NCBI GenBank assembly: GCA_009783975.1
Contig: WRCL01000026.1
Coordinates: forward strand, 1-11,577
Reading direction: 5' to 3'
Origin: Micrococcales bacterium
GTDB taxonomy: Bacteria > Actinomycetota > Actinomycetes > Actinomycetales > Cellulomonadaceae
Length of the DNA stretch: 11,577 nt
Shown: piece after piece, positions 2,982 through 11,577 of the stretch
Position numbering within the stretch: the first letter of the stretch is position 1
How the letters are laid out: each line of letters opens with the position of its first letter
Program-made: the position numbers and the translations under genes
Notes under the pieces: model-generated
What the model was told of the DNA's origin: nothing
Databases searched by the model: none
Seen by the model: only the letters and a program-made list of their open reading frames with translations

Positions 2982-4601
2982 ATGGTCATGACCCTGGTGT
3001 CGCTCTTCGTGGCGGCAGGGGTGTACGCCTGGACCGGCGTCACCCTGGGCCGGGTCTTCGCTACGCTCGGCGCCGCACCGGCCAAGGCATGGTTCCCTAT
3101 CATCAGCCAGGTCCAGATGCTCACCTTCGCCAAGCGTCCAGGCCGGCAGGTGTTCTTGTTCCTCGTCCCGGTCTACGGCCTGGTGCTCACCTACCGGGTG
3201 CTGCAAGAGATGACGCAGATGCTCGGCCGTCCCGAGAAGCTCGCCCTCATCGGTGTGTTCTTGCTGCCGGTGTGGGCCGGTGCCGTCACCGGGGGCGCGA
3301 CGGTGAAGAACGTCGCCTCCGACGGCAAGGTCCGCTCGCACCGCGGTGTCGACTCGCTGTTTGGTTCGTCGTCGGCACCAGCAGGTTCGGGTGTGCCGAC
3401 CACCCCCCTGGAGGCTGACGTCCCTCCGGTCGTGCCCAAGCCCGCGGCTCAAGCCCAGGTCCCAGCTCGGCCCGTCGTCCCGGTCCAGGCTCCGGTTCCC
3501 GTCCAGGTTCCTGCTCAGGCTGCAGCTCAGGTCCAACCTCCGGTCCCGGTCCAGCCTCAACCGCCGGCTCCAGTCCAGCCCGTCGTTGCGGTTCCGGTCC
3601 AGGCCCCACTCCAGCCTGTGGTCCAGGCCCGACCGCCTGTTCCTGCTCAGCCTGGGGTCCTGGTCCAGCCCGCGGTTCCAGCTCGGCCCGTCGTCGCTGT
3701 TCAGGCTCCGGTTCCCGTCCAGGTTCCATCCCAGCCCCACCTCCCCGTCCCGGTTCAGCCTGGGGTCCTGGTCCAGCCCGCGGTTCCAGTTCAGCCTGTT
3801 GTGGCCGCTCAGCCTGTTGCACCTGCGCAGCCTGTGGCACCTGCCCAGCCTGTGGCTCCCGCTCAGCCTGCCCAGCCGATGGTGGTCGACCAGCCCACCG
3901 TGGCCGCGCACCCGTTGTCTCTTCCTCACCGGCCCGAGCTGTTGCTTCCGCCAGTCGTCCAGGATTCGCGGTGGGGCGGCCCAGCCGCAGGTGCGGGCAC
4001 TGCCGCAGCACCACCGCCGGTCCCGGTGCCCACCGACACCCCGTCAGCGCCGCGGCGGTCCGCGGTGCCCCCACCACTGACGCCGCTCGCCGCCGAACCT
4101 GTCGCACCGGTCGCCGTCGCGCCTGCCGTCCCCGCTGAGCCCGTTGCACCAGCCGGGCCTGTCGCGCCCGCCGCACCAGAGGCTGTCGTGGCACCCACGC
4201 CCTTGCACCCTGTGGCGGACATGGTGGACCACACCGTGGTCATCAACCGGTCGTCGCCGCACCGGTGGACGCTGGTGCTCGACGATGGCCGCAGCTTCGA
4301 CATGTGGGCGTCGTCGGTCGTCGTCGGACGCGAACCGACAGCCACAGAAACAGGGGTGCAGATGCTCGCGATCCCAGACGACACACGGACGATCTCGAAG
4401 ATGCACGCCCGTTTTGACCTGGTCGACGGTGTGTGGAAGGTCACCGACCTGGGTTCGACGAACGGGATCGTCGTCACCGGCGCCGACGGGCGCACGTTCT
4501 CGGTCCGCCCACGGGGCACGAGCGTCGTCGGCAACGGGCTCAAGCTCGGTTCGGTCGCGATGCGGTTGGCCCCCGGGCAGCCGTTGGCGCGGAGCGCATG
4601 A
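2982..4601 (+). CDS. Membrane-anchored FHA-domain protein with Pro/Val/Gln-rich linker
   Basis: This 539-aa protein should bind phosphothreonine-containing partners at the membrane. Residues 1-110 hold about three hydrophobic segments (roughly 3-20, 56-71, 86-104) with motifs such as AWFPIISQ and GRQVFLFLVPVYGLVL that resemble DUF5684-type membrane regions. Residues about 146-420 form a disordered linker built of variations on PVQPxVPVQ and QPVAPA. The FHA domain spans about 429-530: GRE at 449-451, SKMH at 472-475 (usual consensus SRxH) and LGSTNG ending at 495, so the phosphothreonine pocket looks intact. The start is ATG 2982, preceded by GAGGAAGAAG (2966-2975); in-frame ATG 2988 is an alternative. 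The kinase and ligand are unknown; no Ser/Thr kinase lies in the window. The next gene overlaps the stop, so the two are probably co-expressed. FHA is certain; the DUF5684 likeness is moderate. Confidence 0.88.
   Translation: MVMTLVSLFVAAGVYAWTGVTLGRVFATLGAAPAKAWFPIISQVQMLTFAKRPGRQVFLFLVPVYGLVLTYRVLQEMTQMLGRPEKLALIGVFLLPVWAGAVTGGATVKNVASDGKVRSHRGVDSLFGSSSAPAGSGVPTTPLEADVPPVVPKPAAQAQVPARPVVPVQAPVPVQVPAQAAAQVQPPVPVQPQPPAPVQPVVAVPVQAPLQPVVQARPPVPAQPGVLVQPAVPARPVVAVQAPVPVQVPSQPHLPVPVQPGVLVQPAVPVQPVVAAQPVAPAQPVAPAQPVAPAQPAQPMVVDQPTVAAHPLSLPHRPELLLPPVVQDSRWGGPAAGAGTAAAPPPVPVPTDTPSAPRRSAVPPPLTPLAAEPVAPVAVAPAVPAEPVAPAGPVAPAAPEAVVAPTPLHPVADMVDHTVVINRSSPHRWTLVLDDGRSFDMWASSVVVGREPTATETGVQMLAIPDDTRTISKMHARFDLVDGVWKVTDLGSTNGIVVTGADGRTFSVRPRGTSVVGNGLKLGSVAMRLAPGQPLARSA
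3462..3727 (+). repeat. In-frame 50-bp duplication inside the FHA linker
   Basis: The segment 3462-3511 (beginning CCAGCTCGGCCCGTCGTC) recurs at 3678-3727 with only a few differences, at an offset of exactly 216 nt (72 codons). Near-identity at the DNA level, rather than only the protein level, indicates recent duplication or recombination within the coding sequence that kept the frame. Confidence 0.8.
3647..3789 (+). repeat. In-frame 35-bp duplication inside the FHA linker
   Basis: The segment beginning TCAGCCTGGGGTCCTGG at 3647-3681 is repeated exactly at 3755-3789, an offset of 108 nt or 36 codons. That is half the 72-codon offset of the other linker repeat, so the linker appears to have grown by unequal crossing-over in units of about 36 codons. 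Confidence 0.8.
3810..3863 (+). repeat. Three tandem 18-bp units encoding QPVAPA
   Basis: CAGCCTGTTGCACCTGCG and two close variants follow each other at 3810-3827, 3828-3845 and 3846-3863, all in frame, giving QPVAPA three times. This is a minisatellite-like stretch where linker length could vary between strains. Confidence 0.85.
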
Positions 4602-5182
4602 TGGGCCGCGGGGGGCAGGTCAACAGTGACCGCAGCGCTCTGGCTGCTGGGCTTGTGGCGCGCGGCGAGTTCGTCTTCGTCAACTGTCTTGTCGTCGACG
4701 GCAGGACCTATAGGTACGGCTGGGACGAGAACTGCTTGGTCGTCGGCCCCGAGCTGGACGTCGCCAGCGGGGAATACGGGATCGCCGGTTTCCACGAGCT
4801 CGAACGTGTCAACGCGGGTTCGACCTGCTATTCATGCGGGTCGACGTTTGCCCACGGTGCGTCAGGATACTTCTTCAAAGCCGTCGGGCCGCGGCTCGTG
4901 TGGTTGCTCGTGTGCACGAGCTCGGGAGCGTTCAGCACCGTGCGCCAGCGCCGCGACGGGATCGAGTTCGTCTCACGACGAGGAGCGCGCTGGGTGCTCC
5001 CGGCTGAAGACGTCACCGCGGTGTTTGTCGAGCCTCCCGAACCCTCTTCTGGGCCCCGACCTGCGTCGCCGCCCTCGCGGGGTGTCCAGCGCCAGCCGGT
5101 GGCTCCCGAGGTGCGGCGGTCGGTGCCAGAGGGCCGGCGGTCGGTTCGTCCTATCACACGTTCTGGATCCCTTGGGGTGTGA
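4598..5182 (+). CDS. Hypothetical protein with CxxC motif, coupled to the FHA gene
   Basis: I do not recognise this 194-aa protein. ATG 4598 overlaps the FHA stop codon by 4 nt (ATGA); the adjacent in-frame ATG 4601 has better spacing (6 nt) from the GGAG at 4591-4594 and is equally possible. The N-terminal two thirds look folded and contain the segment NCLVV twice (in FVNCLVVDG and DENCLVVGP), a CYSC motif at 77-80 in STCYSCGSTFAH that could be half of a zinc or redox site, and a hydrophobic strand LVWLLVCTSSG. The C-terminal 60 residues (from about PPEPSSGPRP) are Pro/Arg/Ser-rich and likely disordered. There is no signal peptide or membrane segment. Tight coupling suggests it works with, or is recruited by, the FHA protein. 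Confidence 0.8.
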   Translation: MMGRGGQVNSDRSALAAGLVARGEFVFVNCLVVDGRTYRYGWDENCLVVGPELDVASGEYGIAGFHELERVNAGSTCYSCGSTFAHGASGYFFKAVGPRLVWLLVCTSSGAFSTVRQRRDGIEFVSRRGARWVLPAEDVTAVFVEPPEPSSGPRPASPPSRGVQRQPVAPEVRRSVPEGRRSVRPITRSGSLGV

Positions 5183-5315: not shown

Positions 5316-6740
5316 ATGGTACGAGGTTTTGCAGGCGAGTCCACACTGTCCGACGCTGACCTGGGCCTCGCGCTGGCCCCGGCCTTGACCCCACAGGGCC
5401 TGGTCCCTGTGCCGAGCTTCTTCCACGGGTTTGCGACCCGTCCCCAGGTGCTGGCCCGCGGCCTGGTCACCTTGGCCGACGTCACGGCCACCCGCTACTT
5501 CCGTCCCGTCCCGACGAACCTGCGCGACCCGGTGCTCACCGCACAAGGTGACCGGTTGCGCGCCGAGTGCTTCTCGGCGTGCAACGGCGTGTACGCGCGG
5601 CTGGACCTGCTCGGCGCTGGTTTCGACGGTGGCGAGATCACCTACGGGACCACGAATGTCGACATCGGCCTGTCCACGCGCCAGGCGTTGTCGAAAGTCG
5701 CCCGCGACCAGCTGTTGCACCTGGACGTCGGGCTGGAGGGGATGACCGTGTCGTCCATGGACGGCACCGCCAAGGAACGTCCGGTGCAGATGCCCGACCG
5801 GTGGGTGCGCGCCCTGGGCAACGCCGCCGAGATGCACCGGGGCCTGGGTGCCCGGGTGCACCTGGACGCTGCGGCGGCCCGGCAGTTCGTCGCGTCGTTG
5901 CCCGCGGTCACCTCCAAGTCCCGTTCGGGGTGGTTGACCGTGACCCGCACCGGTGCGCAGGTCAGTCCCCGCCCCGCCAAAGACGCGGTGCACATCGAGG
6001 GTCTGCACCGCCTCAGCGCAGCAAAACGCCTGCTCACCGACGTCAAAGGTGTGTGGGTGCACGGCTCGGCCGATGGTGAACCAGGCCCGGTGCTGGTCAC
6101 CTTCGAGCTGCCCGACGCCCGGCTCGTCCTCGGCCTGACCGCCGAGGCGTGGCGCGGCTACTCCGGCGAAGGCTCGCTGCTGCCTGCCCTGGCCGACCCC
6201 AACGTCGTCGACGACGCCGACATGGTCTCCATGGTCCTAGCGTTCGAACCGGTCATCGACGTCCCGCACCTCGTCGCCGCCACAGCCCTGCCCGAAGACC
6301 GGGTCCGCTCAGCCCTCGCCGTGCTCGCCGCCTCTGGCCGTGTCGGCTGGGACGCCCACGACGAGGCCTACTTCCACCGCGAGCTGCCCGACGACGCGAC
6401 CCGCGTCGACAAAGACAACCCCCGCCTCGTCGCCGCCCGCAAGCTCGCCGAAGCTGGCGCTGCCCGCCGCGGCAACGAAGACGGCGTGTGGATGGTCCGC
6501 TCCGGCGACGCCGACTACCGCGTCCGCCTCACCGCCGACCCCGCCGCAGCCGACCTCACCCGAGGCGCCACCTGCACCTGCACCTGGTACCTGCGCCACG
6601 GCGGCGACCGAGGCACCTGCAAACACGTCCTGGCAGTCCAGCTGGTGAGCAAGTCCAGCGGCACGGTCGACCTGTCGACCTCGGCGTTCGACGAGATCGT
6701 CGCAGACCTCGGCAGCCTGGAAGAAAAATCGCATGAATGA
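5316..6740 (+). CDS. SWIM zinc-finger protein
   Basis: This 474-aa cytoplasmic protein has a C-terminal SWIM zinc finger, C420-x-C422-x12-C435-x-H437 (CTCTWYLRHGGDRGTCKHVLA), a fold used to bind DNA or proteins. The N-terminal 300 residues have the mixed character of the bacterial SWIM family related to E. coli YehQ, with a conserved-looking early segment GLVPVPSFFHGFATRPQVLARGLVTLADV. Residues about 300-356 (VPHLVAATALPEDRVRSALAVLAASGRVGWD) look like a winged-helix segment. Length is normal and the gene is intact. ATG 5316 is chosen for its leaderless-type promoter; the frame is open further upstream, but that stretch is the overlapping hypothetical gene. Its stop overlaps the next gene by 8 nt. 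In related loci such genes often sit beside HEAT-repeat or MoxR/VWA genes; here the helical-repeat gene follows but no ATPase is visible. The cellular role is unproven. Confidence 0.88.
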   Translation: MVRGFAGESTLSDADLGLALAPALTPQGLVPVPSFFHGFATRPQVLARGLVTLADVTATRYFRPVPTNLRDPVLTAQGDRLRAECFSACNGVYARLDLLGAGFDGGEITYGTTNVDIGLSTRQALSKVARDQLLHLDVGLEGMTVSSMDGTAKERPVQMPDRWVRALGNAAEMHRGLGARVHLDAAAARQFVASLPAVTSKSRSGWLTVTRTGAQVSPRPAKDAVHIEGLHRLSAAKRLLTDVKGVWVHGSADGEPGPVLVTFELPDARLVLGLTAEAWRGYSGEGSLLPALADPNVVDDADMVSMVLAFEPVIDVPHLVAATALPEDRVRSALAVLAASGRVGWDAHDEAYFHRELPDDATRVDKDNPRLVAARKLAEAGAARRGNEDGVWMVRSGDADYRVRLTADPAAADLTRGATCTCTWYLRHGGDRGTCKHVLAVQLVSKSSGTVDLSTSAFDEIVADLGSLEEKSHE

Positions 6741-7185
6741 GCAGAAAGTCGAGCCTGTCCTGTCGCTGGACGACCCCCGGCTTGGTTCTGTCGATGTGGA
6801 CAGCTGGTGTGTGGACATTCACAACTTAACGACGCCCCTCGGGCCACTTTTTGTCTCGTTTATACAATGTGGAGACCGGGCCGAAGTAGAAGCCCACCTG
6901 CCGGTGCTGAACAGCATCCTTGAGCGTCTCCCAGCTCTGTGGCCCGAGGCCGTTCGCTTCCTCTGGGAGGCGAGAGCCAGGGAGCCTCGCACCGAGGAGA
7001 CAAAGCAGCGATTCCTTGCTGCCTGGACGGTCATGGGCGTCGGCATTTTTTCCGACGGCAGTTTCGCCATTCATCTCTGTGACGAGCGCGAAGAATTCAA
7101 GGAATGGTTCTTTGACCACGGGTACTGGCCTGCAGTCCAGTTCAGCGCTGATGGGACGGCCGAGGACTGGACGATCGAGGGTTGA
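6733..7185 (+). CDS. Small hypothetical protein inserted between SWIM and helical-repeat genes
   Basis: This 150-aa acidic protein has no signal peptide or membrane segment and I cannot name its family. It is rich in Trp, Phe and acidic residues and ends AVQFSADGTAEDWTIEG; the overall look, with alternating helices and strands such as GVGIFSDGSFAIHLCDEREEFKEWFFDHGY, recalls small immunity-like or DUF proteins of polymorphic loci, but that is inference. ATG 6733 lies inside the end of the SWIM gene (8-nt overlap) with GGAAGA at 6719-6724 as a plausible ribosome-binding site. Base use is clearly less GC-rich than in the flanking genes: it has a TTA leucine codon (residue 32, 6826-6828) and an ATA isoleucine codon (residue 44), both rare in such genomes. 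This suggests later acquisition. A 61-nt gap with an 8-bp inverted repeat (7180-7187/7220-7227) separates it from the next gene. Confidence 0.82.
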   Translation: MNEQKVEPVLSLDDPRLGSVDVDSWCVDIHNLTTPLGPLFVSFIQCGDRAEVEAHLPVLNSILERLPALWPEAVRFLWEARAREPRTEETKQRFLAAWTVMGVGIFSDGSFAIHLCDEREEFKEWFFDHGYWPAVQFSADGTAEDWTIEG

Positions 7186-7246: not shown

Positions 7247-9694
7247 GTGGCCAAGAATCCCCGCCTCGACGAGGCTGTGAACGTTTTCAAAGAGCTGGGC
7301 TGGGCCAACGCCGCCTACGCCGACGCACCCACGTTGTCGTTGGGTACTGCGCAGCAGCGTGAGGTCGCGCTGGCTGGTCTGCGCACTGGGCCGTGGTTCG
7401 ACACGGGGGAGTGGCAGAATCTCATCGGGGTGGACCCGGTGCTGCTCGGGTTGTTCGCCGTGCGTGTCGGGGTCGATGCGCGCCGGGCAGCGAGTGTGCT
7501 GCTCACCGCCAACCCCCCGGTCTGGACGCACGTGCACCCCAGTGAGGACCCCGACGACGCCTTGGTGGTCGTGGCCGCTGAGCGTGGCCCGGCGTTCGTC
7601 GCCGAGCTGGTCGCACAGATGGCCCGCTCGGTGACCCTGGACGAGGGTGGGCGGAACGGCCGGGCGGTGGTGTGCATGGTCGTCGAGCACGACCTGCCAG
7701 TGCCAGAACAGCCGGCCTACCTGCGGGTGTGGGCCCAGTGCTGGGACGGGCTGACATGGTCGGTCCCCGCGACGCGCCGGGTTCCGGCCCGGACCGCAGG
7801 TGCCGGCCTGGACTCTCGAGCGCCGGCGTCCGCGCTGGAGGCCCGGTTCGCTGGCCATGTGCGTGTCGCAGTGGCGCTGGGCATGGCAGGCGCTGGGGTC
7901 GGCGGCCTGGCTCCGGTGCTGTCAGCAGGGGTGGCTCGGGGTTGGCTGGACAGGGACGAGGCGGTCGACCTCGTGCTGGCTGCGCTGGACGCAGCGACCC
8001 GGGCCCCCGACCACAAGGCGTGGTTGGCGGTGTGGCTCGACGACCTCGCCGTGACCGACGCCGAGGTCCTCGCACAGGTCGACGTCCTGGTCCCGGTGCT
8101 CGCCGCCGTCGGTGCCCCCGCCGTGGAACGGCTGGCCCCCACGCTCATCACCGGGGTGAGCGACGACCTGCTGCCCGAGGTGGTCACCGCCGCCCTCGCA
8201 GCGACGACAAAGAAAGCTCTTCGGGTGGTGCTCGCCGCCTTGGCGGCCCGGCCCCGGCCGTGTGCTGGCACGGTCGAGGTGATCGCACCGCTGGTCACCG
8301 CGGTGCAGGACGCCACGCTGGCCACGGCCGTCGCTGCTGTGGTCCAGGCGTGGGGCCTGGCTGCCGAGCCCGGGCCGGCACCGCCCACGTCGGGTATGTG
8401 GCGCCCGGTTCCGCCGGTCTGGCAGGTGCCAAGGTTTGACCCTGGCCCGCAGACTCCCGCCGAGCTGGCCGTGCTCGGCGCGGAGCTGGTTCGTCGTCAG
8501 CACCGGCCCGGAACGTTGCTCCCGGTCGATATCGCCGTCGAACGGTTCCTGGTCCTCGCCAACGCGGTGACCAGGAGCGACCGTGCCGCCGCTGAGGAGG
8601 CGCTGCTCGCGGCGGGCTGTCCGGGGTTCGACGCGACGGCCGAAGGGCTGAGCGAGCACACCAGCTTTGTTCCGGACCTGCTTTCGGCTCGTGAGGATGC
8701 GGTGCGCTCACGGCTGGGCCAGCTGCCGTGCCTGCTGTCCGAACCGTCGTGGGTTGACCTACGCATCAACCCGGCCGACCTGGTCGCCCGGCTGCGTGCG
8801 TACGAGCAGGCCGGGACCGCAGCGAGCGAGGCCGACCTGTTCTTGGCCTTGACCAGGCTGGACACCACGATGGCCGACGAGGCGGTTCGCGCTGAGCTTG
8901 CCGATCTGCCCATCCCGGTGGTGCTGCTCGACGCATGCACCATGGACCTGACTGCCGGGCCTGCCGCCGCCGCCTACCTCGACGACCCGGTCACCGAGCT
9001 GGTGCTCGACACCGACCGTGACGGTCGTTGGCGGACCCAGCCGGGGCCAGGGCTGCCTCAGGCGCTGCGGACGTTCCCGCGGCGCCTCGCCAGGTTCCCC
9101 TGGTCAGGGATGAGCTCCGCGGCGGCGTTCCCCACCTGGACCGGTGACGCGCTGCTGGTCACGTACGTCATCCCCGAAGCGCAGCAGGGCCTGGTGTGGC
9201 GGCAGGTGGTGCGTCGGGCCACCCCGCTGCCGCCCGGCGGCGCGATGAACCTGCTGGTTGCGCACCAGGCCCTACCCCCCGAGGCGGTCCGTGACCAGGC
9301 GGTCGCCATCGCGGAGGCGTGGGACCGCGGGTTGCTACGTCCCGACGTAGCTGACCCTCGCTACCTGGGCTGGGCCACCCCTGCCAGCAAGGTGGCCACT
9401 GCCGCTCGTGCCCTCGCCGAGGTGGCGGCCGACGGCATGCTCGCCGTGGCCTGGCCGCTGCTGGACGACCTCGTCGCGGCGTGTACCGGTCCACGTCTGA
9501 CCACTGGCGTGGCGGAGGTCGTCCAGACCGTCGCGGACCTGCTACCCGAGGTTCAGCACGCTGTGACGACCGGCCTGGCTGACCCGTCAGTGCTCGACCT
9601 GCCTGGTGTCCGGGCCCTGGCTGCCTGTCCAGGTTCGTCGCAGGCCGTGAAGACCGCCCGTGCCGTCGTCGCCCAGCTGGCGAAGCCGTCGTGA
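7247..9694 (+). CDS. Large helical-repeat (DUF6493-like) protein, intact copy of a tandem array
   Basis: This 815-aa soluble protein is almost entirely alpha-helical, with repeated amphipathic helices rich in Ala, Val and Leu (for example DEAVDLVLAALDAATRAPDHKAWLAVWLDDLA). That suggests an armadillo/HEAT-like solenoid acting as a scaffold. From memory its layout resembles DUF6493-type proteins encoded next to SWIM zinc-finger genes in actinobacteria; the name is tentative. The N terminus MAKNPRLDEAVNVFKELGWANAAYAD is a distinct small module that recurs in both downstream remnants. A Pro-rich break near residues 375-400 (PGPAPPTSGMWRPVPPVWQVP) divides it into two halves. There are no membrane segments, catalytic motif or nucleotide-binding loop. 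It probably cooperates with the SWIM protein two genes upstream. It is the full-length member from which the 9707 and 10327 copies derive, or their better-preserved sister. Confidence 0.85.
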   Translation: MAKNPRLDEAVNVFKELGWANAAYADAPTLSLGTAQQREVALAGLRTGPWFDTGEWQNLIGVDPVLLGLFAVRVGVDARRAASVLLTANPPVWTHVHPSEDPDDALVVVAAERGPAFVAELVAQMARSVTLDEGGRNGRAVVCMVVEHDLPVPEQPAYLRVWAQCWDGLTWSVPATRRVPARTAGAGLDSRAPASALEARFAGHVRVAVALGMAGAGVGGLAPVLSAGVARGWLDRDEAVDLVLAALDAATRAPDHKAWLAVWLDDLAVTDAEVLAQVDVLVPVLAAVGAPAVERLAPTLITGVSDDLLPEVVTAALAATTKKALRVVLAALAARPRPCAGTVEVIAPLVTAVQDATLATAVAAVVQAWGLAAEPGPAPPTSGMWRPVPPVWQVPRFDPGPQTPAELAVLGAELVRRQHRPGTLLPVDIAVERFLVLANAVTRSDRAAAEEALLAAGCPGFDATAEGLSEHTSFVPDLLSAREDAVRSRLGQLPCLLSEPSWVDLRINPADLVARLRAYEQAGTAASEADLFLALTRLDTTMADEAVRAELADLPIPVVLLDACTMDLTAGPAAAAYLDDPVTELVLDTDRDGRWRTQPGPGLPQALRTFPRRLARFPWSGMSSAAAFPTWTGDALLVTYVIPEAQQGLVWRQVVRRATPLPPGGAMNLLVAHQALPPEAVRDQAVAIAEAWDRGLLRPDVADPRYLGWATPASKVATAARALAEVAADGMLAVAWPLLDDLVAACTGPRLTTGVAEVVQTVADLLPEVQHAVTTGLADPSVLDLPGVRALAACPGSSQAVKTARAVVAQLAKPS

Positions 9695-9706
9695 GAAGGA
9701 GCCCTC

Positions 9707-10314
9707 GTGGCCAAGAACCCCCTCCTTGACGACGCCATTGCCGTCTTCACCGAGCTGGGCTGGGCCGACGCGACCTACGCCGACGTCACCACGCTGCCGG
9801 TGGGCGATGCCGCCCAGCGCAAGGCTGCGTTGGCGGGCCTGCGGTCGGGGGACTGGGCAGAGGAGAAGCGGCCCTCGACGTGCCTGAGCCGTCAGGTGTG
9901 TAGGGCCTGTGGCAGCCGACCCGCCGGTGTGGACCCCACCGGCGTGCGACCACGGCGAGGAGACCCGAGGTCCTGACCGCGCTGGCCGTCGAGTTGACCC
10001 GACGTTCGAAGTGCGAGGTGATCGGGTCTGACGTCGTGGTCGAGCAGTTACCCGCTGTGGTGAACGCGGTGGCGCGCACGAGTTGGCGTCCCGTGCTTGT
10101 GGCGCGCCGTCTGGTCGTCTCCTGGCTGGTGCCGCCGAGGTCGTCGGCGTCGCCGACCTGCTGCCTGAGGTCCAGCACGCCGTGGGCACCGGCTTGGCAG
10201 ACCCGTCCGTCCTGGACCTGCCCGGTGTCCGCGCCCTTGCGGTGCGGGCCCGGTTCGTCCCAGGCGGTGAAGACTGCCCGTGCCGTTGTCGCCCAGCTGC
10301 CCGGCCGGTGGTGA
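9707..10314 (+). pseudogene. Decayed second copy of the helical-repeat gene (three fragments)
   Basis: This is a tandem copy of the 815-aa gene with most of the middle deleted. Fragment 1 (9707 to about 9870) encodes MAKNPLLDDAIAVFTELGW and onward, about two thirds identical to residues 1-50 of the intact protein, behind AGAAGGAG. Fragment 2 (about 9910-10077) matches residues 385-442 (LWQP...PPVW, then EVLTALAVELTRR and VVVEQLPAVVNAVA) but needs frame changes. Fragment 3 (10137-10314) matches residues 757-815: PEVQHAV-TGLADPSVLDLPGVRALA is nearly identical, then a 1-nt insertion shifts the frame before GSSQAVKTARAVVAQL. The reading from 9707 stops at 9976 as an 89-aa stub. The deletions remove about residues 55-384 and 443-756. 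The stub might still be translated, but no function is supported. Confidence 0.85.
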
Positions 10315-10326
10315 GAAGGAGCTGTC

Positions 10327-10629
10327 GTGGCCAAGACCCCCTCGACGAGGCTGTTGACATCTTCGTCGAGCTCGGCTGGGCCGATGCTGACCCGTTGGAC
10401 GCGGCCACGTTGCCACTGGGCACTCCGGCCCAGCGCCAGGGTGGCGCTGACGTCCGCCGACCTTGTGGGTGGCGCGGTGGCAGTCCCAGACCGCCCGTGG
10501 GCTGAAGCCGACGGGACGGCCACACGATGCTGCAGGTGGCGCGTCTTGTCGCGATCTCCCGGCTCCCTGTGCCCCAGCTGGTCGGCCTGCCGTGTGGGTG
10601 GTACGTGCGAGGATCGTCGCACCGATAGC
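10327..10629 (+). pseudogene. Decayed third copy of the helical-repeat gene (N-terminal stub)
   Basis: GTG 10327 sits behind AGAAGGAG and 12 nt after the previous copy's stop, exactly as in the preceding copy. GTGGCCAAGACCCC matches the start, then 4 nt are missing relative to the intact gene, and the homology continues in another frame: LDEAVDIFVELGWADADPLDAATLPLGTPAQRQ, matching residues 7-37 of the intact protein. Beyond about 10470 the match fades. A stretch at 10527-10627 reads MLQVARLVAISRLPVPQLVGLPCG before a stop and may be a remnant of the second half, but that is tentative. The gene cannot make a normal protein. The 3' part appears replaced by the nuclease remnant that follows. Confidence 0.78.
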
Positions 10630-10647
10630 GGGAAGGGGCTGGTCAGG

Positions 10648-11205
10648 GTGGAACACAGCACGCCAGAGCGGATGCCGGACGGGTACGCACAGTGGTTGCT
10701 CGAGGTGAAGGCCCGGGTGCAGGCTACCCAGGTCCGAGCGGTGCGGGCGGTCAACAGCGAGGTCATCATGCTGTACTGGTCGATAGGCCGTGACATCGTC
10801 GAGCGCCAGGGCGCCGCAGGCTGGGGAGCCAAGGTCATCCGCCGGATCGCCGCTGACCTCAGCTGTGAATTCCCAGGTCAGCGTGGCTGGTCGCCGACGA
10901 GCCTGAAGTACATGCGGGTGTTCGCCCAGGCGTGGCCAGAACTTGGCGCAATTGGTCCACAAGTTGTGGGCCAATTGCCGTGGGGCCACATCAGAGCACT
11001 GCTCGACCCAGCCTGTCGTGCGCCCAGTTGCACGGCCTCGGTGCGAAAAGCCTGCCGCAGAGGCCAACCCAGGAGCAGATCGCCGAACGGCTGGGAGTCA
11101 CCCAAGCCGCCGTCTCACAGATGGAACACCGGCCCGACATGCTGCTGTCCACCCTGCGCGACTACCTCGTCGCAGCCGGCGCCCAACGGCCCCGGCTCCT
11201 GGTGA
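10648..11205 (+). pseudogene. Truncated DUF1016 (YhcG-type PDDEXK nuclease) N-terminal domain, chimeric 3' end
   Basis: GTG 10648 (behind GGAAGGGG, 10631-10638) or ATG 10672 starts a typical DUF1016 N-terminal domain: YAQWLLEVKARVQ, AVRAVNSEVIMLYWSIGRDIVERQ, GWGAKVIRRIAADLSCEFPG, GWSPTSLKYMRVFAQAWPEL and QLPWGHIRALLD. In intact proteins this domain is followed by the linker helix region and a C-terminal PDDEXK nuclease domain. Here family likeness ends at about 11007, and the remaining frame to 11205 is an Arg/Pro-rich out-of-frame reading of an antitoxin gene. The nuclease domain is absent, so no nuclease activity is expected. The N-terminal domain alone could still be made. Such genes are common in restriction-modification and other defence islands, which suits the toxin-antitoxin remains beside it. 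Confidence 0.85.
10948..10978. repeat. 15-bp inverted repeat within the DUF1016 remnant
   Basis: GCAATTGGTCCACAA (10948-10962) and TTGTGGGCCAATTGC (10964-10978) are complementary apart from one G-T pair, around a single G. The one-base centre argues against an RNA hairpin and for a DNA palindrome. It encodes AIGPQVVGQLP, the part of DUF1016 just before PWGH, so it may simply be coincidence under coding constraint. Confidence 0.5.
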
Positions 11206-11240
11206 CCGTCCACGGCGCGGAAATCGACGTAGCGCTCTGA
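11028..11240 (+). pseudogene. 5'-truncated XRE-type antitoxin (C-terminal fragment)
   Basis: From about 11028 this frame encodes LHGLGAKSLPQRPTQEQIAERLGVTQAAVSQMEHRPDMLLSTLRDYLVAAGAQ and ends VHGAEIDVAL. The TQEQIAERLGVTQAAVSQMEHR segment is a Cro/C1-type helix-turn-helix, and the following DMLLSTLRDYLVAAG is typical of XRE antitoxins paired with RelE/HigB-like toxins, where it forms the post-HTH helix. The usual N-terminal 20-40 residues and a credible start codon are missing; upstream in frame is only DUF1016 sequence read out of phase. No toxin gene adjoins. The helix-turn-helix itself is complete, so a product might bind DNA if an unusual start were used. Confidence 0.75.
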
Positions 11241-11365
11241 CGTCGCCGTGGACCGGCTTTTGCCCGCCAGTTCGTCGAACGGGCTGCTCGGGTCCCCCGG
11301 GAGGTCGCCGCCCGGGAGTCTCGTCGCCTCCTGGTCTGGCTAACCTGGTCTGGTAGACTCGATAG
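11241..11365. other. Short intergenic region with direct repeats before the Phd antitoxin gene
   Basis: The 125 nt contain no gene. CCTGGTCTGG occurs at 11330-11339 and 11344-11353, 14 bp apart and directly adjoining the -10 box, so the pair is a candidate autoregulatory operator for the downstream antitoxin. CCCGGGAG also occurs twice (11297-11304 and 11312-11319). Confidence 0.5.
11354..11359 (+). promoter_or_regulatory. -10 element TAGACT of a likely leaderless promoter for the antitoxin gene
   Basis: TAGACT ends 6 nt before ATG 11366 and there is no Shine-Dalgarno sequence, the same geometry as at 2298-2310 and 5304-5316. It supports ATG 11366 over the in-frame ATG 11378 and overlaps the direct-repeat region, as expected for an autorepressed antitoxin promoter. 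Confidence 0.6.
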
Positions 11366-11577
11366 ATGACCGTGGTGATGAACGTCCAGGACGCCAAGGT
11401 GAATCTGTCACGACTGCTGGCCTCGGCCGAACGCGGTGACGAGGTGGTGATCGCGCGCAGGGGTGTGCCCGTGGCCCGGCTGGTACCGGTGGCCTCCGCG
11501 CGCCGTTTCGACCTGTTCCCGACCGAGCTGAGCGATGATGCCGCCAGCGCGTCGCTGGCCCCGCTGGACGACGCTGA
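11366..11577 (+). CDS. Phd/YefM-family antitoxin (3' end outside window)
   Basis: The first 70 codons encode a type II antitoxin that would neutralise a toxin by direct binding and repress its own operon. MTVVMNVQDAKVNLSRLLASAERGDEVVIARRGVPVARLVPV is the classic Phd/YefM DNA-binding and dimerisation domain: short strand, helix with NLSRLL, GDEVVIARRGxPVARLVP. After it comes an acidic, probably flexible tail (FDLFPTELSDDAASASLAPLDD) that would wrap the toxin. No frameshift is present up to the window edge. The partner toxin, usually a PIN (VapC), Doc or RelE type, should be encoded immediately downstream and is not visible. The start ATG 11366 fits a leaderless transcript. The gene appears healthy, in contrast to the broken genes just before it. 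Confidence 0.9.
   Translation, partial: MTVVMNVQDAKVNLSRLLASAERGDEVVIARRGVPVARLVPVASARRFDLFPTELSDDAASASLAPLDDA

Follow-up and report, generated by a model that had tools for sequence, protein, structure and literature searches.

An intact scaffold gene followed by two broken copies points to probable birth-and-death turnover in a SWIM-linked gene system of Micrococcales

The window analyzed here is the whole of contig WRCL01000026.1 (11,577 nucleotides [nt]) from a Micrococcales bacterium, contig C26 of an assembly (GCA_009783975.1) of 2.36 Mb in 430 contigs that is estimated to be 68% complete. It carries a gene for an 815-amino-acid (aa) helical-repeat protein, hereafter the scaffold, downstream of a gene for its conserved partner, a SWIM zinc-finger protein, and two broken copies of the scaffold gene follow the intact one, collinear with it and beyond what chance would produce. 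We explain this arrangement, with a probability of about 0.6, by birth-and-death turnover of the scaffold partner in a SWIM system that is possibly defensive. The evolutionary part of this explanation is very probable, and a role of the system in defense against phages or the toxins of rivals is offered tentatively, at less than even odds. An ARM/HEAT-like scaffold would work with the SWIM protein encoded just upstream; in the lineage of the window the scaffold gene has multiplied but SWIM has not gone beyond one or two copies; scaffold copies would have been gained, shortened to half-length, probably recombined and lost, and small open reading frames (ORFs), one of them immunity-like, would have settled between SWIM and scaffold. 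The window shows a locus of this kind, in which a single copy is open and two are on their way out, and in such a system the scaffold may bind a target and the SWIM protein pass the signal on.

The intact gene runs through 815 uninterrupted codons at 7247-9694. Comparison of its protein with positions 9695-11577 by tblastn returned four segments in three frames, namely residues 1-50, 745-792, and 795-811 in order and then residues 7-39, which belong to a further copy. A frameshift-tolerant aligner, whose low gap cost makes any short match lying between the named segments a product of chance, scored 443 for copy 2 (9707-10314; maximum of 171 and mean of 152 in 25 dinucleotide shuffles) and 156 for copy 3 (recognizable from 10327 to about 10455; maximum of 112 and mean of 97 in 25 shuffles). 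The intact copy followed by two decaying ones that the initial annotation had proposed is therefore confirmed, as is the collinearity of the fragments, and the identical 12-nt stop-to-start spacing it described holds to the nucleotide at each junction (TGA 9692-9694 to GTG 9707 and TGA 10312-10314 to GTG 10327). The ribosome-binding site said to be common to all copies does not extend to the first, which reads GGAAGGAG and not AGAAGGAG.

Several boundaries had to be redrawn. Residues 1-50 of copy 2 stand as annotated, its middle segment starts at about residue 370 and not 385, and its end spans residues 745-811 and not 757-815. Taken alone, the middle piece scores weakly (92 versus a maximum of 83 in 40 shuffles), and within it positions 9902-9961 are 85% identical to another scaffold copy, a paralogue on contig C284 (E = 4e-11). 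Copy 3 does keep an N-terminal module with a 4-nt deletion, but its recognizable part ends near 10455 and not at 10629, and there is an extra shift at 10440; the aligned part covers residues 7-44 at 10341-10455, and the first residues, from 10327 and ahead of the deletion, were added by reading. Since two large internal deletions, a stop codon, and several shifts occur together, a simple sequencing error is an unlikely source of these remnants.

Table 1. Features of the window (all coordinates are positions in the 11,577-nt stretch)
Feature	Position	Strand	Evidence and remarks
DUF5684-like membrane region with C-terminal FHA domain	2982..4601	+	Pfam FHA 29.6 bits (cut-off 20.7); DUF5684 26.5 bits, under 27.4
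ORF, 193 aa, no convincing family	4601..5182	+	Pfam scan
SWIM zinc-finger protein, 474 aa, conserved scaffold partner	5316..6740	+	Pfam SWIM 19.8 bits (cut-off 19.6); PADLOC SWIM_XIII 1.4e-40
ORF, 150 aa, between SWIM and scaffold, no family	6733..7185	+	Pfam and NCBIfam scans
41-nt block, ribosome-binding site and first codons	7235..7275	+	Identical in syntenic G004 locus, divergent on both sides
Intact scaffold gene, 815 aa	7247..9694	+	ARM/HEAT-like half (predicted) 1-372, linker, DUF7824-bearing half about 400-815
Copy 2, residues 1-50	9707..9856	+	tblastn and frameshift-tolerant alignment
Copy 2, residues about 370-444	9862..10080	+	Stop at 9901, shift near 9919; frameshift-tolerant alignment and paralogue match
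Copy 2, residues 745-811 and stop codon	10095..10314	+	Shift near 10242; tblastn and frameshift-tolerant alignment (aligned to 10297)
Copy 3, residues 1-44	10327..10455	+	4-nt deletion near start, shift at 10440; tblastn, alignment, and reading
DUF1016 N-terminal domain, truncated gene	10702..11004	+	Pfam 94.9 bits, profile 1-101 of 137

The intact scaffold matches DUF7824 at residues 478-547 (32.6 bits versus a Pfam cut-off of 27.5). Two of 10 further relatives scanned also pass this cut-off, the others reaching 20-27 bits, and neither DUF6493 nor DUF7825 gave a Pfam match in the window scaffold or in those 10. A profile alignment to three DUF6493-type proteins linked to SWIM covered 674 columns at 98.9% probability, and the scaffold belongs to the SWIM-linked DUF6493/DUF7824/DUF7825 superfamily, in which it is divergent. 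An ARM/HEAT-like solenoid is predicted for its residues 1-372. For the scaffold, a plasmid collection gave no match, NCBIfam no informative match, and a Foldseek search nothing informative.

We searched for the scaffold gene in 81 genomes of the same genus, the window's own included. It is present in 17 of the 80 others (18 of 81 with its own), and 15 of these 17 carry a single gene, in some cases cut by a contig end. The window's own genome (G000) and two others (G004 and G083) are multi-copy, with at least 13, 15, and 14 scaffold matches, respectively, counts that include fragments and split genes and are lower bounds, as no more than 12 initial candidates were scored in each genome. Complete scaffold genes number one in the window's genome, six in G004, and seven in G083; SWIM genes number two in G000, one in G004, and one plus a remnant in G083. 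A SWIM gene occurs in all 17 other carriers (an end piece only in G013), with a weaker second relative in G066 and G033. At 13 of the 15 single-copy loci measured (start codons chosen by script; a Rhodococcus locus, L016, is included and G013 left aside), the SWIM stop and the scaffold start overlap by 4 nt, the exceptions being G033 (+14 nt, start codon uncertain) and G097, where the order is reversed and scaffold and SWIM lie about 1.35 kb apart (locus L089); at four multi-copy loci, the window among them, the gap is 211-506 nt. SWIM and scaffold are an accessory two-gene unit in most carriers, and the expansion is asymmetric, the scaffold having multiplied while SWIM was kept at one or two.

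Length also differs between the two kinds of carrier. Complete genes of single-copy carriers (n = 12, Rhodococcus included) are all long (1079-1150 aa), whereas the complete copies in the multi-copy genomes comprise 5 long and 9 short ones (804-919 aa); W_10311, a stretch of fused pieces of copies 2 and 3, was excluded from these comparisons. A C-terminal module of about 290 aa is absent from many copies. By eye, a stand-alone ORF in locus L082 (14958-15854), with no Pfam or NCBIfam match, resembles this module, and at 3451-4005 of that locus the first 30 scaffold residues stand in frame with an unrelated ORF of about 155 aa, again with no match in either collection.

Tandem duplication, divergence before decay, and loss, as originally proposed, are supported, and relatives do contain the open tandem copies that this model calls for. 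On G083:C39 (WRMB01000039, isolate Th196P3bin61) three open copies lie end to end, the first without its N-end and the second and third each starting at the preceding stop, and on G004:C14 (WRET01000014, isolate Lab288P4bin104) two complete copies are adjacent; we take both isolates to be of termite-gut origin. Scaffold remnants similar to those of the window also occur on G004 and G083 contigs. Decay describes copies 2 and 3 well, but it is not the whole story, as a C-half-only gene is open in two species. The domain border of the model coincides with the breakpoint, near residues 370-391, of six open half-length copies, which comprise four N-halves (359-426 aa) and two C-halves; three other truncated copies are instead missing their first 135-194 residues, so this border is a frequent but not an exclusive breakpoint. 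The C-half genes of contig C95 of the window's genome and of G004:C14 are related over 1588 nt, upstream DNA included, and their silent divergence (synonymous divergence, dS) of 0.52 and ratio of nonsynonymous to synonymous divergence (dN/dS) of 0.40 over 469 codons suggest that the C-half form is probably older than the species split and has been kept since. Among eight stretches of the window's genome compared with G004, close counterparts were found for the C95 C-half (73%) and an end piece on C134 (89%, 83 aa), and the other six reached 45-67%. Upstream of the C-half gene on C95 (locus L010, 5820-6019), about eight scaffold start codons are joined, by eye, to the tail of an antitoxin gene, as if the N-half had been replaced by a toxin-antitoxin unit.

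The copies appear to be old. In a tree, 19 sufficiently long copies of the three multi-copy genomes fall on one side of a 100/100 branch, within which the genomes are interleaved though somewhat clustered (6 changes where 2 is the minimum; 15 of 200 shuffles were as low). Copies 1 and 2 differ by a pooled dS of 0.71 (bootstrap 0.51-1.06), with 0.68 for the N-end and 0.74 for the C-end, and a kinase gene compared between G000 and G004 gives a similar 0.64; by this measure, the scaffold copies have about the same age as the split of the two species. Because copy 2 nevertheless retains 88% of residues in one segment, its breakage looks much younger than the duplication. That segment is the C-terminus, which the initial annotation described as nearly identical to that of copy 1 and ascribed to recombination between the two copies. 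The amino-acid identity is indeed 88% (57/65), but nucleotide identity is 0.76 and 0.90 in its two pieces, and as silent divergence there (0.74) is no lower than at the N-end (0.68), the similarity is better read as protein conservation. Recent conversion of this end from copy 1 is therefore rejected; one 17-codon C-end piece taken alone is closer to copy 1 (0.71 of third positions).

The diversifying selection that had been suggested did not hold up either. In five chosen single-copy pairs, dN/dS is 0.21-0.44 for the scaffold and 0.13-0.17 for SWIM, so that the scaffold evolves faster but is still constrained, and no 80-codon window in these pairs has dN clearly above dS. Codon tests were negative, and gene-wide positive selection is rejected.

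Recombination among scaffold copies in general is likely. Contig G004:C25 is syntenic with the window, with DNA matches of regulator and kinase genes (named by eye), the FHA gene, SWIM, and DUF1016, and it has one intact scaffold copy and neither remnant. Between the two loci the scaffolds are 47-53% identical and the SWIM proteins 91-93%, with a dS of 1.02 and 0.34, respectively, whereas in the five chosen single-copy pairs, which share members, SWIM and scaffold dS agree within 0.6- to 1.3-fold. The argument that the syntenic scaffold is not an orthologue, its dS being three times that of SWIM, is weakened by the 0.52-0.88 of other genes at the locus, which leaves only the discrepancy between SWIM and scaffold; the two scaffolds are doubtful as orthologues. 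The 41-nt block around the scaffold start has no other occurrence within three mismatches in five genomes, and exact tracts are also common to neighboring copies on G083:C39, one of 49 nt close to the gene starts and one of 53 nt close to the gene ends. Among the best 30 tracts of 351 pairs, the three longest genuine ones (41, 49, and 53 nt) lie at gene ends, and tracts of 29-38 nt also occur inside genes. Exchange anchored at gene ends would be the favored source, with selection on the gene ends as the alternative. Four shared tracts of 61 nt were discounted, since the same DNA had been counted twice in adjacent genes.

Small genes of several kinds surround the scaffolds. Homologues of the FHA gene adjoin scaffold copies on the window genome's contig C95 and on G004 contigs C25 and C3. 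Across four multi-copy loci with SWIM, three kinds of small ORF stand between SWIM and scaffold. That of the window has relatives in 3 of 394 genomes, its own included, and no match in the plasmid collection, and NCBIfam gave none for the small ORFs. In G004, the corresponding ORF matches the colicin/pyocin immunity family PF01320 (23.0 bits versus a cut-off of 21.2), the one hit to this family above cut-off among 10 ORFs scanned; that on contig C332 of the window's genome is DUF7716-like (23.3 bits, under the cut-off of 26), of which G083 keeps an end piece only, by eye. A DUF4259 ORF lies beside a scaffold remnant on G083:C44, with a DUF2199 ORF nearby, and toxin-antitoxin-like genes, mostly named by eye, adjoin many scaffold copies. 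In the window itself, a second gene wreck stands behind the scaffold remnants (10650-11240), where the DUF1016 N-terminal domain is continued, in another frame, by a helix-turn-helix tail; a 474-aa ORF takes the DUF1016 position in the G004 locus. Further on, the Phd-family antitoxin region (11327-11577) shares 97% identity with G004:C105, much more than the neighboring genes do, which suggests that a toxin-antitoxin unit recently passed from one of the two lineages to the other.

These neighbors could also be read as the cause of the pattern. Selfish or neutral amplification would make the locus a dumping ground for inserting toxin-antitoxin and nuclease genes, with scaffold copies carried along and decaying at no benefit of copy number. 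The antitoxin, toxin, DUF1016, and AAA/nuclease-like genes beside many copies (most named by eye), the near-identical antitoxin DNA shared with G004, and the broken copies in all three multi-copy genomes are what it would predict; since 14 complete copies are open in three genomes and a half-length copy common to two species has a dN/dS of 0.40 over 469 codons, we regard it as unlikely. Alternatively, scaffold copies and small ORFs could form an orphan immunity array that neutralizes the toxins of neighbors, the scaffold being itself a toxin-binding immunity protein, as the colicin/pyocin-immunity-like ORF adjoining a G004 scaffold and the DUF4259 and DUF2199 ORFs next to or near remnants on G083:C44 might indicate. 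However, the conserved partner is SWIM, the overlap at 13 of 15 single-copy loci leaves no room for an immunity gene, DUF4259 and DUF2199 are families of unknown function, and the DUF7716 match is under its cut-off, all of which make this account quite improbable. Least credible is an assembly artifact, in which intact paralogues of a poor metagenome bin were joined, as chimeras or with many errors, into what look like copies 2 and 3. The 430 contigs, the 68% completeness, and the ending of the contig in an antitoxin segment near-identical in another genome invite this suspicion, but the N-end of copy 2 matches any other copy at no more than 0.78 and its C-end at no more than 0.88, so that it is not a misjoin of known paralogues, and comparable remnants are present on G004 and G083 contigs.

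Birth-and-death turnover in a possibly defensive SWIM system accommodates these observations best, and a defense role fits the accessory two-gene unit, the expansion of one partner, the immunity-like neighbor, and the PADLOC match of SWIM. That role is an inference, and several points weigh against it or against the reading as a whole. Constrained codon evolution (gene-wide scaffold dN/dS below 0.5) and poor assembly quality count against it, each of the three multi-copy genomes being a fragmented assembly. A single family match, at 8.5e-5, carries the immunity reading, and the small ORF of the window has no family. The scaffold matched 0 PADLOC families at E ≤ 10 in a search whose program filters drop most weak matches. 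At the syntenic locus, the scaffold dS is only modestly higher than that of the other genes (0.52-0.88), and SWIM may be the odd one. Among the 40 of 153 pairs listed for protein identity, the single-copy pair G096-G093 is also discordant (SWIM 0.87, scaffold 0.57), so the contrast between SWIM and scaffold is not peculiar to multi-copy genomes.

A bolder version, which we consider improbable, is that one conserved SWIM effector draws on a whole set of helical sensors that can replace one another, each genome having one or two SWIM genes and at least a dozen scaffold stretches, with the conserved ends acting as joints and the bodies, half-length forms, and immunity-like cargo exchanged between loci; if true, SWIM and its interchangeable scaffolds would be a bacterial counterpart of receptor repertoires. 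The expansion of one partner alone, whose intact, half-length, and broken copies occur together, suggests that specificity varies in the scaffold and offers natural material for testing this, and the dS of 0.71 between copies 1 and 2, set beside the 0.64 of a flanking gene between species, gives a rough date for what had been called decay.

We know of no assigned function for the SWIM-scaffold pair, and its likeness to known systems is partial. The window SWIM protein resembles the PADLOC model SWIM_XIII, which we take to represent the accessory protein of type XIII retrons. The reverse transcriptase family RVT_1 had no match in the window's genome (68% complete), G010, G021, or G033, and a retron locus is rejected; the sole match among five genomes searched is at G004:C41:24449-25054, on a different contig from the locus. 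Acquired interbacterial defense (orphan immunity) clusters gather immunity-like genes near recombining repeats, whereas the loci described here are built around a SWIM-linked scaffold and include one clear immunity family only. In the MoxR-vWA diversifying conflict systems, repeat proteins, HEAT among them, take the effector position (Kaur et al. 2020, PMC7159879); that text does not mention SWIM (0 occurrences), and no MoxR or vWA domain was found by Pfam among nine window ORFs scanned. The closest likeness is to the actinobacterial pair of SWIM and a DUF6493/DUF7824/DUF7825 protein (G139, G277, and G193), which has the same two adjacent genes, SWIM proteins 43-44% identical over most of their length, and partner proteins that align over 674 columns. 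SWIM proteins of the SWIM_XIII kind are present across the class, with matches in 17 of 196 other genomes of a class-wide draw. Unlike that pair, the window scaffold passes the cut-off of DUF7824 only, many copies are without the C-terminal module of about 290 aa, and three genomes are multi-copy, whereas 15 of the 17 other carriers in the genus keep a single scaffold gene.

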